Origin: Burkholderia sp. Nafp2/4-1b
GTDB lineage: Bacteria; Pseudomonadota; Gammaproteobacteria; Burkholderiales; Burkholderiaceae
DNA length: 64,000 nt
Assembly (NCBI RefSeq): GCF_003635165.1
Contig: NZ_ML058616.1
Coordinates: 124,001-188,000, forward strand
Reading direction: 5' to 3'
The notes under the pieces were generated by a model. That model searched no databases and was not told the DNA's origin. It worked only from the letters and a program-made list of their open reading frames with translations. Below are positions 49,231-55,672 of this stretch, one piece after another. Position 1 is the stretch's first letter. The number at the start of each line of letters is the position of its first letter. The translations under genes were made by a program, and so were the position numbers.

Positions 49231-52200
49231 TTACTTCGCGACCACTACCGGAATCCCCTTCAGCATCCCCGCGCCCTTCATCTCGTCGAGCGCGTGCTGC
49301 ACGGCCGCGCTCGTCGCCGCGTCGATGCCGAGTTGCAGCGCGAGCTCGCGTTCCGCGCGCTTCACGCCCGCGAGGTTGCGCACCTTCACGTGACCGAAGC
49401 CGCGCACGCGCGCATGCAGGTCGGCCAGCTGCGTGACCTGCGCCGCATTGCCGGCGGTCGTCGCGGCGAGCGCGCGCGTGAGCGTCGTCTCGTAGTCGTC
49501 CGCGAGCGCGCGTTCCATCCGGCGCTCGGCCGTGCGGCCGAACGGATCGAGCCACGTGCCGCGCAGGCTGCGCACGCGCGCGAGCGCGCCGAGCACCGGC
49601 CACATCCACTGGCCGAACACGCGCTTCTTCGGCGCGCTGCCGTCGCGGCCGGCCTTCGCGACCGTCGGCGGCGCGAGGTTGAACTTCACGCGATAGTCCT
49701 GCCCCGGCACGCCTTCGAACTGCGCTTCGAGCGCGCTGCGGAACGCGCCGTCCGCGTACAGCCGCGCGACCTCGTATTCGTCCTTCACCGCGAGCAGCCG
49801 ATAGAACGTCGTCGCGACCGCGCGCGTGAGCGCATCGTCGCCCTTTGCGCGCGCCGCGTCGACCAGCGCACGGTAGCGCTCGACGTAACGCGCGCCGCCG
49901 TATGCGTCGAGGCGCGCTTCGCGATCGGCGATCAGGTCGGCGAGCGTCTCCGGCGCGGCGTGCGCGGCGGCCACCGTGTGGCGCGCGTTCCACAACGCGT
50001 CGAGGCCCGCGGCGTCACCCGCGGCCATCCGGCCGATCGAGAACGCGAGCTTGTTCATCGGCACCGCGACGTTGTTCAGTTCGATCGCGCGCATCATCGC
50101 GGCGAGCGATACCGGCACGAGGCCGAGCTGCCATGCGTAGCCGAGCATCAGGATGTTCGCGCCGATCGAATCGCCGAGGAATTTCGCGGCGAGCGCCTGC
50201 GCGTCGCAGCTCGACAGATAGCCATCGCCGGCCGCGTGATGCATCTTCTCGAGCAGCGCATCCGCGTGCAGGCTCGCGTCGGGATTCTGCACGAACGACG
50301 CGTTCGGGATCCGGTGCGTGTTGACGACGATGCGCGAACGCCCGTGGCGCACCGTCTGCAGCGCCTCGGCGCTCGCGCCGACGACCATGTCGCACGCGAG
50401 CAGCACGTCGGCCTGCTGCGTGTCGATGCGCACCTGGTTCAGCCAGCGGTCGCTCGACGCGATCCGCACGAACGACAGCACCGAGCCGCCCTTCTGCGCG
50501 AAGCCCATGAAGTCGAGCACCGACGCGCTCTTGCCTTCGAGGTGCGCGGCCATGCTGATCAGCGCGCCGACCGTCACGACGCCCGTGCCGCCGACGCCCG
50601 TCACGAGCATGTCGTACGGCGCCGCGTCCAAGTGCGTCGCGGGCACCGGCAGCGCGTCGACGCGCGCGGCCAGCGCCGCTTCGTCGAATGCGGCGCCGGC
50701 CGCCTTCTTCAGCGCGGCGCCTTCGACCGTCACGAAGCTCGGGCAGAAGCCGTTCACGCACGAGTAGTCCTTGTTGCACGACGACTGGTCGATGCGGCGC
50801 TTGCGGCCGAGCGGCGTCTCGAGCGGCTCGACCGACAGGCAGTTCGACTGCACGCCGCAGTCGCCGCAGCCTTCGCACACCGCATCGTTGATGAACAGGC
50901 GCTTGTCCGGGTCGGGGAATTCGCCTTTCTTGCGGCGGCGGCGCTTCTCGGCCGCGCAGGTCTGGTCGTAGATCAGCACGGTGACGCCCGGCGTCTCGCG
51001 CAGTTCGCGCTGCACCGTGTCGAGTTCGCTGCGGTGATGGAACGTCGTGCCGGCCGGGAACAGCCCGTGATGGCCGTCGTACTTCTCCGGTTCGTCGGAC
51101 ACCACGACGAAGCGCGACACGCCTTCCGCCTCGACCTGGCGCGCGATCTGCGGCACCGAGATGCTGCCGTCGACCGGCTGGCCGCCCGTCATCGCGACCG
51201 CGTCGTTGTAGAGGATCTTGTACGTGATGTTCGCCTTCGCGGCGACCGCCTGGCGGATCGCGAGGATGCCCGAGTGGAAGTAGGTGCCGTCGCCGAGGTT
51301 CTGGAACACGTGCTTCGTGTTGGTGAACATCGCATGCGCGGCCCAGTCGACGCCCTCGCCGCCCATCTGGATCAGGCCCGTCGTGTCGCGCTCCATCCAC
51401 GACGCCATGAAGTGGCAGCCGATGCCGGCCTGCGCGATCGAGCCTTCCGGCACCTTCGTCGACGTGTTGTGCGGGCAGCCGGAGCAGAAGTACGGCGTGC
51501 GCTTCACCGCGTCGGCTTCGTTCGACAGGATCTGCGGCGCGACGAGATCGACGACGCGCTCGCGGCGGTCGAGCGCCGGCTTGTGGCGCGCGAGCCATTC
51601 GGCGAACACCGGCAGGATCCGCGACGGGCGCAGCTCGCCGAGCTCGGACAGCAGGCAGGCGCCGGCCGCGTCGTGCTTGCCGAGCACGCGCGGGCGTGCA
51701 CCTTCGGCGCGGTTGTACAGGTAGTCCTTGATCTGCTGCTCGATGACGGGCCCCTTCTCCTCGATCACCAGCACTTCCGCGAGCCCGTCGACGAAGGTTT
51801 CGATGCGCGTCATCTCGAGCGGATAGGACAGGCCGACCTTGTAGATCCGCACGCCGGCTGCGTCGAGATCGTCGACCGTCAGGTCGAGGCGGCGCAGTGC
51901 TTCCATCAGGTCCAGGTGCGCCTTGCCGCAGGTGACGATGCCGACGTTCGCCTGCGCGCTCGGCGCGATCCACTTGTCGATGCTGTGGGCGCGCGCGAAG
52001 TGGCGCACCGCGTCGAGCTTCGCGGCGAGGCGCGCCTCGATCGTGAGGCTCGGCAGGTCGGGCCAGCGGTTGTGCAGGCCGCCCGCCGGCGGCGTGAAGC
52101 CCGGCGGCGCCGGCCACTGCGTCTGCAATGCGTCGAGATCGACGGTCGAGCCGGACTCGACGGTCTCCGAGATCGCCTTGAAGCCGACCCATGCGCCCGA

Positions 52201-52806
52201 ATAGCGCGACAGCGCCCAGCCGTACAGGCCGAACTCGAGCATGTCGGCGATGTTCGACGGGTTCACGACCGGCATGTGCCACGCGATCATCGCGAAATCG
52301 CTCTGGTGCGGCATCGACGACGACACGCAGCCGTGATCGTCGCCCGCCACCACCAGCACGCCGCCGTGCGGCGACGAACCGTACGCGTTGCCGTGCTTCA
52401 GCGCGTCGCCGGCGCGGTCGACGCCCGGGCCCTTGCCGTACCACATCGCATACACGCCATCGACGGTGCGCTCCGGGTCGGCTTCCACGCGCTGCGTGCC
52501 GAGCACCGCGGTGCCGCCGAGTTCCTCGTTGATCGCGGGCAGGAAGCGCACGCCGCTGGCGTCGAGCAGTTTCTTCGCCTTCCACAGCTGCTGGTCGACC
52601 ATCCCCAGCGGCGAACCGCGGTAGCCGCTGACGAAGCCGGCCGTGTTCAGGCCTTGCACGGTGTCGGACGCGCGCTGCATCAGCAACAGCCGGACCAGCG
52701 CCTGCGTGCCGGTCAGGAAGATCCGGCCGCGCGTGGCGGTCAGATTGTCGGTCAGACGGTAGTCGGATAGAGCGGGCGTGCCGTCTTCGGGCAGGCGAGC
52801 GGTCAT
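49231..52806 (-). CDS. Fused indolepyruvate ferredoxin oxidoreductase
   Basis: A 1191-residue single-chain IOR. From the N-terminus: pyrimidine-binding (IorA-like) domains (GYRGSPLGMVD, PAINEELGGTA, PHGGVLVVAGDDHGCVSS), the TPP-binding core (TPYFCSGCPHNTSTKVPEG, NLGDGTYFHSG, YKILYNDAVAMTGG), an iron-sulfur segment (CEGCGDCGVQSNC; SCNKDYSCVNGFCPS) and the gamma/IorB-like domain (MLVTGVGGTGVVTVGA, MGFAQKGGSVLS). It oxidises aryl- or branched-chain 2-oxoacids to acyl-CoA, passing electrons to ferredoxin. Aerobic betaproteobacteria use such fused enzymes in aromatic amino acid breakdown. It starts at 52806, next to the gene-free array region. Confidence 0.94.
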   Translation of the reverse strand: MTARLPEDGTPALSDYRLTDNLTATRGRIFLTGTQALVRLLLMQRASDTVQGLNTAGFVSGYRGSPLGMVDQQLWKAKKLLDASGVRFLPAINEELGGTAVLGTQRVEADPERTVDGVYAMWYGKGPGVDRAGDALKHGNAYGSSPHGGVLVVAGDDHGCVSSSMPHQSDFAMIAWHMPVVNPSNIADMLEFGLYGWALSRYSGAWVGFKAISETVESGSTVDLDALQTQWPAPPGFTPPAGGLHNRWPDLPSLTIEARLAAKLDAVRHFARAHSIDKWIAPSAQANVGIVTCGKAHLDLMEALRRLDLTVDDLDAAGVRIYKVGLSYPLEMTRIETFVDGLAEVLVIEEKGPVIEQQIKDYLYNRAEGARPRVLGKHDAAGACLLSELGELRPSRILPVFAEWLARHKPALDRRERVVDLVAPQILSNEADAVKRTPYFCSGCPHNTSTKVPEGSIAQAGIGCHFMASWMERDTTGLIQMGGEGVDWAAHAMFTNTKHVFQNLGDGTYFHSGILAIRQAVAAKANITYKILYNDAVAMTGGQPVDGSISVPQIARQVEAEGVSRFVVVSDEPEKYDGHHGLFPAGTTFHHRSELDTVQRELRETPGVTVLIYDQTCAAEKRRRRKKGEFPDPDKRLFINDAVCEGCGDCGVQSNCLSVEPLETPLGRKRRIDQSSCNKDYSCVNGFCPSFVTVEGAALKKAAGAAFDEAALAARVDALPVPATHLDAAPYDMLVTGVGGTGVVTVGALISMAAHLEGKSASVLDFMGFAQKGGSVLSFVRIASSDRWLNQVRIDTQQADVLLACDMVVGASAEALQTVRHGRSRIVVNTHRIPNASFVQNPDASLHADALLEKMHHAAGDGYLSSCDAQALAAKFLGDSIGANILMLGYAWQLGLVPVSLAAMMRAIELNNVAVPMNKLAFSIGRMAAGDAAGLDALWNARHTVAAAHAAPETLADLIADREARLDAYGGARYVERYRALVDAARAKGDDALTRAVATTFYRLLAVKDEYEVARLYADGAFRSALEAQFEGVPGQDYRVKFNLAPPTVAKAGRDGSAPKKRVFGQWMWPVLGALARVRSLRGTWLDPFGRTAERRMERALADDYETTLTRALAATTAGNAAQVTQLADLHARVRGFGHVKVRNLAGVKRAERELALQLGIDAATSAAVQHALDEMKGAGMLKGIPVVVAK

Positions 52807-53138: not shown

Positions 53139-53470
53139 CTCACCATTCGGATGCACAGCGTTCGGATTGGTCGCGGGCGCGGGATGTCCACATTGCCGGC
53201 CCGGGCCGCGGCCGAGCAGGCGGAAATGCTCACCGCTCGATCGCACAGGGTTTCGAGTGGCGTCGGGTGGCGGATGTCCACACCTCACTTTGGGCTTCAG
53301 TTCGAGCCGGTTCCGACACTCACCGTTGGAAACCACAGCGCGATGAGTGGGTGTCGGGGGCAGATATCCACACGGCCACACGGTGGATCCCCCGCCCGGT
53401 CGATTCGGCGTTCGCTCTCACCGTTCGGATACACAGGATTGTGAGTCGATTCGGGCGCACGATATCCACA
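53139..53470 (+). repeat. Left block: four right-pointing elements
   Basis: Four 54-bp elements starting at 53139, 53229, 53319 and 53417 (period 90, 90, 98). The ends are GATGTCCACA twice and GATATCCACA twice. Only the conserved blocks match between copies; the linkers differ. Confidence 0.92.
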
Positions 53471-53653
53471 TCTCTGCCGGTTCTTGCAATGGTCTGAGTG
53501 GGGGTCCTGACGGGCGGTCCTGCGCTGCGGCCTGGTGGTCCTGAGCGGTGGTCCGGTGGGCGGGCGATGCAGGCTTACGTGGGTTCGTCTCGGGTGCCGA
53601 TTTTGGCGTGGACGAGCGTGCAACTACGCAGTCAAACGAGGCGCCGATGCAGA

Positions 53654-54245
53654 TGTGGATATCGCCGCCAGCAGACACTGGAAACCCTGTGATCCCCGAC
53701 GGTGAGCGCCCGGCCGCGGTCGATCGAGGATGCCCATCCTGGTGTGGACAGCCAGCCCCGCGACGACTCAAAACGCTGTGAATTTCGATGGTGAGCGACA
53801 GCACTCGACCCAACGAGAGCGCTGATTCGGCTGCGAATAGCTCGACTCCGCCCCACTCGAAACCCAGTGAATTTCAATGGTGAGCGACGGCACGTTGATC
53901 GAACACGAGCGCCGATTCGGGTGTGGATAGTCCGCCCCTCGAACCACTCTCGACGCTGTGAAATTCAACGGTGAGCGACGGCACATCGGTCGAACACGAG
54001 TGCTGATTCGGGTGTGGATAGCTCGCCCCCCAAACCACTCTCGACGCTGTGAAATTCAACGGTGAGCGACAGCACATCGATCGAACACGGGCGCCGATTC
54101 GGGTGTGGATAGCTCGCCCCGAACCACTCGAGACGCTGTGAATTTCAATGGTGAGCGACAGCGCATCGATCGAACATGAGCGCTGATTCGGGTGTGGATA
54201 GCTCGCCATCGAACCACTCGAGACGCTGTGAAATTCGACGGTGAG
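53654..54245 (-). repeat. Central block: seven left-pointing elements as a ~90-bp tandem array
   Basis: Seven elements in inverted orientation, beginning (on the plus strand) with TGTGGATAG-type sequence and ending in GGTGAGCGAC. Here the linkers are conserved too (CGATCGAACACGAG, GCTGATTCGGG), so the block is a true ~90-bp tandem repeat of higher identity than the flanks, most alike between 53890 and 54245. The third copy has a decayed box (CTGCGAATAG). Confidence 0.92.
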
Positions 54246-54467
54246 CGTCGGCATGCGATCGCGCGATGACGCCGAACAGAGCGTGAACAGCGACGATCGG
54301 TACCGCTCGGCAAGCCTTGCGGCTGAAGCCGCAGAGGCCCGCGCGAACGGGCTGACAGGCAGTCGAGCACGCACGCTCACCGACGAAATACACAGCGCAT
54401 CGAGTCGCTTCGACGGCACGATATCCACATCGGGGCCGGTACGCGAGCGGAGCACGCAATCGCGACT

Positions 54468-54483
54468 GCGGGTAGAATGCGCG
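54468..54483 (+). promoter_or_regulatory. Promoter-like TAGAATGCGCG within the array
   Basis: GGGTAGAATGCGCGAC carries TAGAAT, close to a sigma70 -10 box, and the same 11 bases TAGAATGCGCG recur at ~54682 in the next linker. No clear -35 box. If active, transcripts would run rightwards through array elements. Confidence 0.3.
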
Positions 54484-54681
54484 ACCCTCGAAGCGGCGCG
54501 GCACACCGGGAGCGGACACGTGCGCCATCGCGTCCGTCGAGCGTCCGTCGAGCCGGCGCCGACACTCACCATCGAAATACACAGCGCGCCGAGTGAATTC
54601 CGCGGCAAGATATCCACACCGCGCTCGGGTACGGGTTTATCGCCGATCTACCGCTGGTCTATCGCCGATTTCCGCGCGCCG

Positions 54682-54692
54682 TTAGAATGCGC
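54682..54692 (+). promoter_or_regulatory. Second promoter-like TAGAATGCGCG within the array
   Basis: Second exact copy of TAGAATGCGCG, preceded by CGCCGT. It lies in the linker between the elements at 54565 and 54765. The direct repeat TATCGCCGAT (about 54638 and 54660) sits just upstream. Confidence 0.3.
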
Positions 54693-55114
54693 GTCGGTCC
54701 GAATGTCGGGCGGGCGCCCGGAGGCCCCCGCCGGGCAAGCCTCACACACAACCGGCCGTCGACACTCACCATTCAAAAGCACAGCATTTTTCGTCGTTGC
54801 GGACCCTGGTTGTCCACACCTCGCATCGCGCCTGCGCTACATGCCGCCACTCTCACCGGTGGAATGCACAGCCTTCCGAGTGATTGGGAAACCGGGATAT
54901 CCACAACCGAAACCGCGTAGACATTCGGCGCCCGCGTATTGGCAATGGCGCTTCATGCGTCTGCCCCCAACCCGCCTCAAATGCCGGAAAGCCCCGTAGA
55001 TCGGGCGTCCGACCGCGCGCTCACCGTTCCGGTCCACAGCATTTCGAGTGAGCGGAAGGGCCGGTTGTCCACATGCGCTCCGCAACGGTCAGCCGGCAGC
55101 AACCGCAAGCTCGG

Positions 55115-55672
55115 TCACTCAGCGATCGAACGGATGATCCGCGCCGGGTTTCCGCCGACCAGCGTGTTCGGTGGAACGTCCGTGGTCACGACGGAGCCCG
55201 CGCCGACCACCGAATTCTCGCCGACCGTCACGCCGCCGATGATCGTCGCACCCGCGCCGATCCACACGTTGTTGCCGATCACGATCGGCCGGGCGACGAC
55301 GGCGTCGCGTCGACGGGACGGCTCCACCGGATGACCCGACGCGATGAGGCTGACGTTCGGCCCGATCATCACATCGTCGCCGATGTCGAGGCCGCCAAGG
55401 TCGTAGAACGTGCAGTTCTGGTTGACGAACAGGTTGCGGCCGATGCGCGTATCTGCGCCGCCCGTCGCGTAGAACGGCGGGATCAACAGGAATCCGGCGT
55501 CCACCGGCTTGCCGATCAGTTCTCCGAATAATCTGCGGACTTCGTCCGCATCGTCGAACGTCAGACGGTTGAGCCGCGCGGTGATCGCCATCGTCCGCTT
55601 GAGCTCGGCCGTCATCGCGGCCGATTCCGGCGTGCGTCGGGGAATGATCGTGGTGCGATCGTCGTTCGCCAT
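55115..55672 (-). CDS. Sugar O-acetyltransferase (maltose acetyltransferase family)
   Basis: A 185-residue left-handed beta-helix acetyltransferase. A helical N-terminus (TAELKRTMAITARLNRL) is followed by hexapeptide repeats (IGRNLFVNQNCTFYDLGGLDIGDDVMIGPNVSL), the catalytic histidine H114 in ASGHPVE, and VWIGAGATIIGGVTVGENSVVGAGSVVTTD. It transfers acetyl from acetyl-CoA to a sugar hydroxyl. It starts at 55672 with CGGAGAAC ~9-13 bases upstream and faces the GST gene across a 326-base region with an inverted repeat. Its 3' end abuts the repeat array. Confidence 0.92.
   Translation of the reverse strand: MANDDRTTIIPRRTPESAAMTAELKRTMAITARLNRLTFDDADEVRRLFGELIGKPVDAGFLLIPPFYATGGADTRIGRNLFVNQNCTFYDLGGLDIGDDVMIGPNVSLIASGHPVEPSRRRDAVVARPIVIGNNVWIGAGATIIGGVTVGENSVVGAGSVVTTDVPPNTLVGGNPARIIRSIAE

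Follow-up and report, generated by a model that had tools for sequence, protein, structure and literature searches.

Arrays of a composite 54-bp element with a DnaA-like box on chromosome 1 of Burkholderia

An array of composite elements between two genes

The window, the whole 64,000-nucleotide stretch of Burkholderia DNA that we analysed, carries 16 copies of one element between positions 53139 and 55073, nine on the plus strand and seven on the minus strand. They lie between a gene similar to pyruvate-ferredoxin oxidoreductase and a gene for a hexapeptide-repeat protein, as follows.

49231..52806, minus strand: flanking gene, pyruvate-ferredoxin-oxidoreductase-like (POR, DUF6537), outside the system; marks the syntenic place
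53139..53192, plus strand: element 1, 54 bp; adjoins the POR/DUF6537 gene; orthologous in 13 compared loci
53229..53282, plus strand: element 2, 54 bp
53319..53372, plus strand: element 3, 54 bp
53417..53470, plus strand: element 4, 54 bp
53654..53706, minus strand: element 5, 53 bp
53743..53795, minus strand: element 6, 53 bp
53832..53884, minus strand: element 7, 53 bp; 3' box decayed (TATTCGCA)
53922..53975, minus strand: element 8, 54 bp
54013..54066, minus strand: element 9, 54 bp
54104..54155, minus strand: element 10, 52 bp; same spacing as the oriC1 edge
54193..54245, minus strand: element 11, 53 bp
54376..54429, plus strand: element 12, 54 bp
54565..54618, plus strand: element 13, 54 bp
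54765..54818, plus strand: element 14, 54 bp
54852..54905, plus strand: element 15, 54 bp
55020..55073, plus strand: element 16, 54 bp
55115..55672, minus strand: flanking gene, hexapeptide-repeat protein, probably an acyltransferase, outside the system

All 16 elements claimed in an earlier note on this DNA are present, and the exact 54-bp length that it gave for the nine right-pointing copies holds in 9 of 9; the minus-strand copies span 52–54 bp (5' ends at 53706, 53795, 53884, 53975, 54066, 54155 and 54245, with lengths of 53, 53, 53, 54, 54, 52 and 53 bp). A sequence-only model, built in part from these same window copies, recovered all 16 in the source genome at E <= 2e-7.

The consensus of 223 copies in array-carrying loci, a set in which decayed boxes are under-represented because the selection score includes the 3' box, is approximately CTCACC[GA]TTGAAATNCACAGCGTTTCGAGT[GC]GTTTCGGGGGCCGG[AT]T[AG]TCCACA. 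It comprises four conserved blocks, CTCACC (positions 1–6), CACAG (16–20), CGAGT (26–30) and G[AT]T[AG]TCCACA (45–54), with a divergent middle and weaker conservation of AAAT at 11–14 and AC at -2,-1. The earlier note had picked out CTCACC, CACAG, CGAGTG and the 3' end; two small corrections are that the conserved blocks number four and that the minus copy at 53884 has a decayed 3' end. Element length was 54 bp in 170 copies, 53 in 49, 52 in three and 55 in one, with corresponding gaps between CACAG and the box of 25 (170), 24 (49), 23 (3) and 26 (1) bp. Among neighbouring same-strand pairs less than 260 bp apart, pooled over all loci, 96 of 172 had start-to-start spacings of 86–91 bp, so the linkers are around 35 bp long.

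Conservation is concentrated in the blocks. In 13 orthologous copies beside the neighbouring gene, mean pairwise identity was 95% in the blocks (as taken from the overall consensus), 61% in the remaining element and 48% and 40% in the 35-bp flanks, indicating that selection acts on the blocks. A coding function appears unlikely because elements are found in both orientations and the unit lengths are not divisible by three, which also speaks against the unannotated repetitive gene that the earlier note had named as an alternative.

Genomic distribution and predicted origin

To assess how widespread the arrays are, we used a sequence-only model built from 72 copies (R1). Under Infernal's stricter filters, with which weak copies may be missed and which were also used for the second model described below, R1 found arrays in 52 of 65 Burkholderia genomes and matches in 50 genomes of a family sample of 398, all 50 from a single one of its 25 genera, Burkholderia; the same scan found no array in the other 24 genera. 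The 52 carriers have 9–23 matches each (median 18, mean 17.7, variance 5.7). The narrow spread of copy number is compatible with a role in dosage, with the reservation that the species are not independent samples. When array presence was mapped on a tree built from the origin region of 64 genomes, it required two changes, compared with 12 on average after shuffling.

In eight near-complete genomes (3–4 contigs), 144 of 145 matches fell at two loci in each genome, both on chromosome 1, which is not the pattern of the scattered mobile repeat that the earlier note had considered. That note had asked whether arrays occur at one syntenic locus per chromosome; in these genomes chromosome 1 has two. 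The source genome (G000) has the 16 window copies plus four at G000:C12:3698-4075, and a model search returned nothing else below E 0.02; further weak matches lie on its contigs C27, C19 and C1. Two lone partial matches outside arrays, both covering model positions 15–54, were seen at G010:C2:973114-973153 (E 0.0018) and G000:C14:279964-280003 (E 0.022), and the latter was dropped as an element as it lies inside an aminotransferase-like gene (named by eye).

Of 80 loci from named genomes, nine, all Burkholderia, have arrays at the same place upstream of the POR/DUF6537 gene (8–15 matches per locus, one in L004 at another spot); 71 of the 80 show none, some of which end short upstream (for example, L073). 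The array-less loci L012 and L064 present a clean empty site: the POR/DUF6537 gene and a GST-like gene, so labelled from its resemblance to the window gene, are adjacent upstream of 8001, and both the array region and the hexapeptide gene are absent.

The position of the arrays was referred to a predicted origin of chromosome 1. In the genome G010, the GC-skew minimum (around 80–99 kb from dnaA), pairs of DnaA boxes (92.1–95.3 kb) and parS beside gidA (120–122 kb; gene names by motif) together place oriC1 at this distance from dnaA. The rpmH-dnaA region was rejected as the origin, having only one TTWTNCACA box in each of eight regions with dnaA. A 500-bp stretch of G000 containing TTATCCACAG and an AT-rich stretch (GTTAACTTCTACTACGTATATATAC in most genomes) has matches in all 65 genomes; we take the AT-rich stretch as the putative unwinding element (DUE) and the 500-bp stretch as the predicted oriC1.

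With contigs treated as circular where the path crosses their ends, the main array lies 298–380 kb from predicted oriC1 in 14 of 16 genomes, a relation to the origin that the earlier note had suggested examining; the two exceptions are G009, at 483 kb, and G058, at 841 kb. In all eight genomes compared, the second array is 48–63 kb away from predicted oriC1, next to an ECF sigma/anti-sigma pair and variable genes (named by eye). In G058, a block with dnaA has moved: dnaA lies 585 kb and the main array 841 kb from oriC1 on chromosome 1, their mutual distance is still about 255 kb, and the second array has kept its place beside oriC1.

Six carriers (G010, G022, G047, G048, G059 and G062) have a second oriC-like match, which in G010, G022, G047, G048 and G062 lies about 2–5 kb from the second array. 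Seven non-carriers have one as well, in five cases (G017, G021, G036, G039 and G043) around 3 kb from the first. Such modules were seen near position 6113 of L125, near 8933 of L135, near 9821 of L138 and at L133:12600-13000, and contain a DnaA-box pair and CACAG repeats, with a copy of the DUE in L133; they lie about 1–3 kb from the second array, or about 5 kb in L247. Each is perhaps a duplicate or relict origin.

A DnaA-like box and the oriC1 edge

The last nine bases of the element resemble the DnaA box TTATCCACA, matching it perfectly in 18 of 223 copies and with one mismatch in 154. None of 32,004 other positions in the elements and upstream linkers came within one mismatch. Across 780 kb around oriC1 of G010 there are 63 boxes within one mismatch, and the densest 1.5-kb window is in the main array (12 boxes, compared with five in the second array and three in oriC1). 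The array box has a form of its own: it is mostly ATATCCACA and not TTATCCACA, and 75% of the 54-bp copies have A at position 46 and under 1% have G as the next base, whereas the four perfect boxes of the G010 oriC1 region, in TTATCCACAG, are followed by G. All 13 occurrences of ATATCCACA in these 780 kb are in arrays and none is in oriC1, although elsewhere in the G010 genome this sequence occurs outside arrays too, and the whole-genome count of WTRTCCACA in G010 indicates mild enrichment (84 sites versus 57 for the reversed pattern). The CACAG block in turn resembles a weak DnaA box, AAATNCACA. The element box thus appears DnaA-like with its own dialect, and may represent weaker DnaA sites, a cooperative pair formed by the CACAG block and the end box, or sites for another protein. 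For DnaA of E. coli, a preference for paired sites at close spacing has been reported (PMC11317965).

The architecture of the element recurs at oriC1. A weak source-genome match, G000:C12:62011 (E 0.5), falls within oriC1 and pointed to this link. At the outer edge of oriC1, 248–249 bp from the DUE, carriers have a CACAG block, followed in most of them by CGA, and then GTTATCCAC. CACAG, a 23-bp gap and TTATCCAC are found there in 52 of 52 carriers and 0 of 13 non-carriers. In the latter, the CACAG nearest to the first DnaA box is 13 bp (eight genomes), 4 bp (two), 12, 0 or 32 bp away, and inspection by eye of these edges revealed no other CACAG at 23 bp. Gaps of 23 and 12–13 bp differ by roughly one turn of the helix, and in most elements the gap is 24–25 bp. 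Of the 52 carriers, 43 also have the longer motif CACAG-N5-YGA at this edge, against one of the 13 non-carriers. Each element has the architecture of the oriC1 outer edge (CACAG, CGAGT and the DnaA-box-like end [AT]T[AG]TCCACA at a fixed distance) with a CTCACC block added. The full 5' geometry, CTCACC-N9-CACAG, occurs at the edge itself in 5 of 52 carriers, where it makes a complete element of 52-bp geometry except for an altered last base of the box; as these five sit near each other on the tree, this may reflect one event.

The core and box were also scored together. Matches at the oriC1 edge scored 15.0–30.9 in 49 of the 50 carriers in which the DUE was located (G013 had none; the scan missed the DUE of G009, and G010, scored apart, reached 18.6), and none of the 13 non-carriers had a match at this edge. 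Control DNA totalling 1.30 Mb gave six matches above 10, one of which reached at least 14; the latter, in L038, scored 23.1 and so equals many oriC1 edges. Within the 780 kb of G010, seven matches other than those of the main array score at least 16, and each is located in or next to the second array or at a pair of DnaA boxes. A second core, CACAG-N5-YGA[GCT]T, occurs across the DUE from this edge, 58–61 bp from the DUE start; 41 of 51 carriers have it, but none of the 13 non-carriers. The ten carriers without the strict form are G004, G010, G022, G024, G040, G045, G048, G053, G059 and G062, five of which (G010, G022, G048, G059 and G062) have a second oriC-like match. The co-occurrence of array and edge module rests on one or two evolutionary events.

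A scan of G010 for WTRTCCACA also uncovered a cluster of a different type on chromosome 2, with 10 sites in 3.0 kb, where the main array has 11 in 1.05 kb. It comprises eight copies of a 74-bp unit (L278:4058-7161, equivalent to G010 C3:2591058-2594159) placed to either side of two genes, one for a LysR-type regulator and one for a beta-lactamase, and had no Rfam match up to E 1. The unit, TCCACAG...TGTTGGCAAGC.TGTGGATATCC...TTGATC, has inverted TTGTCCACAG and GGATATCCACA boxes around TGTTGGCAAGC. A model of this unit (R2) gave 5–11 matches in 65 of 65 Burkholderia genomes. The 74-bp unit has the GATATCCACA box (GGATATCCACA in the consensus) in common with the chromosome 1 element and is without CTCACC or CGAGT. 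The common box would fit a general initiator-type protein behind it, and each chromosome may have its own array.

Candidate functions

We favour, with somewhat better than even confidence, the interpretation that the array is an origin-linked cluster, on chromosome 1, of composite sites for the initiator: a module from the origin edge would have been amplified, and its copies, bound by DnaA and possibly a partner, would govern when initiation occurs, in the manner of datA. While the sequence, geometry, selection, position and link to the oriC1 edge are observations, the binding protein and the effect on timing are inferred. DnaA would most likely occupy the two CACA-type boxes together, with CTCACC and CGAGT perhaps bound by a lineage-specific partner, so that around 18 sites hold or inactivate the initiator. 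At 48–63 kb and mostly 300–380 kb from oriC1, the arrays are doubled soon after initiation. The free amount or activity of the initiator would fall once they are copied, and the doubled arrays would damp re-initiation, as do datA and origin-near clusters of DnaA boxes in E. coli, helping toward one initiation per cycle. Titration or chromosome organisation, two of the roles suggested in the earlier note for a repeated protein-binding site, would thus fit best. Strict iterons of the plasmid type, also suggested there, do not fit, as the 54-bp unit occurs on both strands and none of the seven neighbouring proteins scanned is encoded by a rep gene. Several observations weigh against this interpretation. 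The predominance of ATATCCACA over TTATCCACA would argue against simple DnaA titration, DnaA does not account for CTCACC and CGAGT, which are among the best-conserved blocks, and 13 of 65 genomes do without the array. Further points against it are the one or two evolutionary events behind the co-occurrence of array and edge module, the ten carriers without the strict second core, the only mild enrichment of WTRTCCACA across G010 together with its chromosome 2 cluster, the high-scoring control match in L038, and the status of oriC1 as a prediction.

Known clusters of DnaA boxes offer partial parallels. Bacillus subtilis has several DnaA-box clusters (DBCs), at several places around the chromosome, which lower free DnaA; both these and the Burkholderia array are clusters of boxes, but the DBCs have near-consensus boxes without a composite unit, which only the array has. 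The E. coli loci datA, DARS1 and DARS2 have only a few boxes each and are single loci, in contrast to around 18 near-regular 54-bp composite units in two arrays, units that additionally contain the blocks CTCACC and CGAGT and whose box is non-canonical. In likeness to the array, datA and DARS1/2 are described as non-coding DnaA-box loci that lie at a conserved relative distance from oriC and modulate DnaA (PMC4585315, PMC5010248). Both the close packing of several DnaA-like boxes, 172 of 223 copies being within one mismatch of the consensus box, and the largely constant distance from predicted oriC1 are features of datA-type loci. A high density of boxes near oriC is regarded as favourable for titration in E. 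coli (PMC12371093); the origin-near region there is a broad accumulation of single boxes, whereas the Burkholderia array is compact. By analogy, the array may work like datA or such a titration region, and we claim membership of neither class.

The alternative that survives best, although we consider it unlikely, is that the sites bind a different origin protein, a lineage-specific factor recognizing CTCACC, CACAG and CGAGT at the oriC1 edge and in the arrays, with a role in sequestering the origin, in anchoring, in condensin loading or in segregation. That two of the most conserved blocks are not DnaA boxes, that the array box differs from the oriC1 box and that arrays and the oriC1 edge module occur in the same genomes would all be consistent with such a factor. 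The DnaA-like box at a constant distance in most copies argues against it, and no candidate protein was found beside either array (at the window array, seven proteins were scanned; at the second array, the neighbouring genes were named by eye). The parS palindrome GTTTCACGTGAAAC occurs only twice in 780 kb of G010, at gidA/parA, and not in the arrays.

It is improbable that the array is a chromosome 1 checkpoint that couples replication of chromosome 2 or of a third replicon, like crtS of Vibrio cholerae, a chromosome 1 site in replication control (PMC5991422, PMC11711613). crtS is bound by the chromosome 2 initiator RctB, whereas for the Burkholderia array such a link would be conjecture. The early position on the chromosome 1 replichore would suit this role, and the published B. 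cenocepacia chromosome 2 iteron, ctCCCGAAAAacCTCACCTtt, has CTCACC too and is likewise a repeat near an origin (PMC4948915). These RepA iterons, however, measure 19–21 bp and lie beside a repA-type gene (PMC4948915), and their other half, CCCGAAAA, is missing from the element consensus. The iteron pattern, allowing at most one mismatch, occurs 20–35 times in 13 of 13 genomes, seven of which are array-less, and was absent from the arrays among the matches listed for G002, G010 and G012; despite the shared CTCACC, we rejected the link to the iteron. Nor was an element found at the chromosome 2 origin in either of the two regions scanned. A third replicon as the partner was set aside because G009, assembled as two contigs, carries the array, although two contigs alone are no proof that a third replicon is absent. 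In G010, a second cluster of chromosome 2 iterons lies at G010:C3:3249871-3250140, about 170 kb from the origin cluster; for chromosome 2 of strain J2315, an iteron cluster is mentioned 140 kb away (PMC4948915).

Still less probable is a passive or selfish repeat spreading by tandem duplication, as might be suggested by runs of almost identical units that recur locally at intervals of about 89 bp, such as those in L010. Copies of mobile repeats such as MITE or REP are dispersed, whereas these lie at two loci per genome (all but one of the matches in eight genomes), show block-wise selection between orthologues, have no terminal inverted repeats by eye and were matched neither in viral contigs, searched with the exact pattern, nor in plasmids. 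Seven phage matches of 26–28 bp were taken as chance. Short autonomous units in both orientations within an intergenic region could also be small RNA genes or a structured RNA, but this is hardly credible given that Rfam 15 yielded only two matches, far under the cut-offs (E 3 and 3.4) and none above the gathering score, that the 16 window copies have no consensus fold, and that, in 95 non-redundant 54-bp copies with no covarying stem, mutual information exceeded the maximum of 50 shuffles (0.18) only in two pairs of neighbouring columns outside the element.

Returning to an initiator-binding array, we offer a more speculative extension, to which we give less than even credence: a clade of Burkholderia may have turned the edge of oriC1 into a repeated module, of which around 18 copies, kept near the origin, would serve as decoy half-origins, bound by DnaA and a second factor, whose competition with oriC1 would set initiation. 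Chromosome 2 would have its own array, with another partner sequence and the same GGATATCCACA box, so that each chromosome may have a private counting device for the initiator that both use.

The earlier note knew of no description of the array, and we likewise found none in the literature listings searched. The timing of initiation in bacteria with multiple chromosomes is an open question, and a 2025 study of E. coli states that, up to that point, DnaA titration had not had experimental support (PMC12371093). The array module gives a sequence handle on oriC1, the exact place of which in B. cenocepacia J2315 has been called uncertain (PMC4948915). A compact, removable natural array with countable modules would, moreover, make titration directly testable through copy number.
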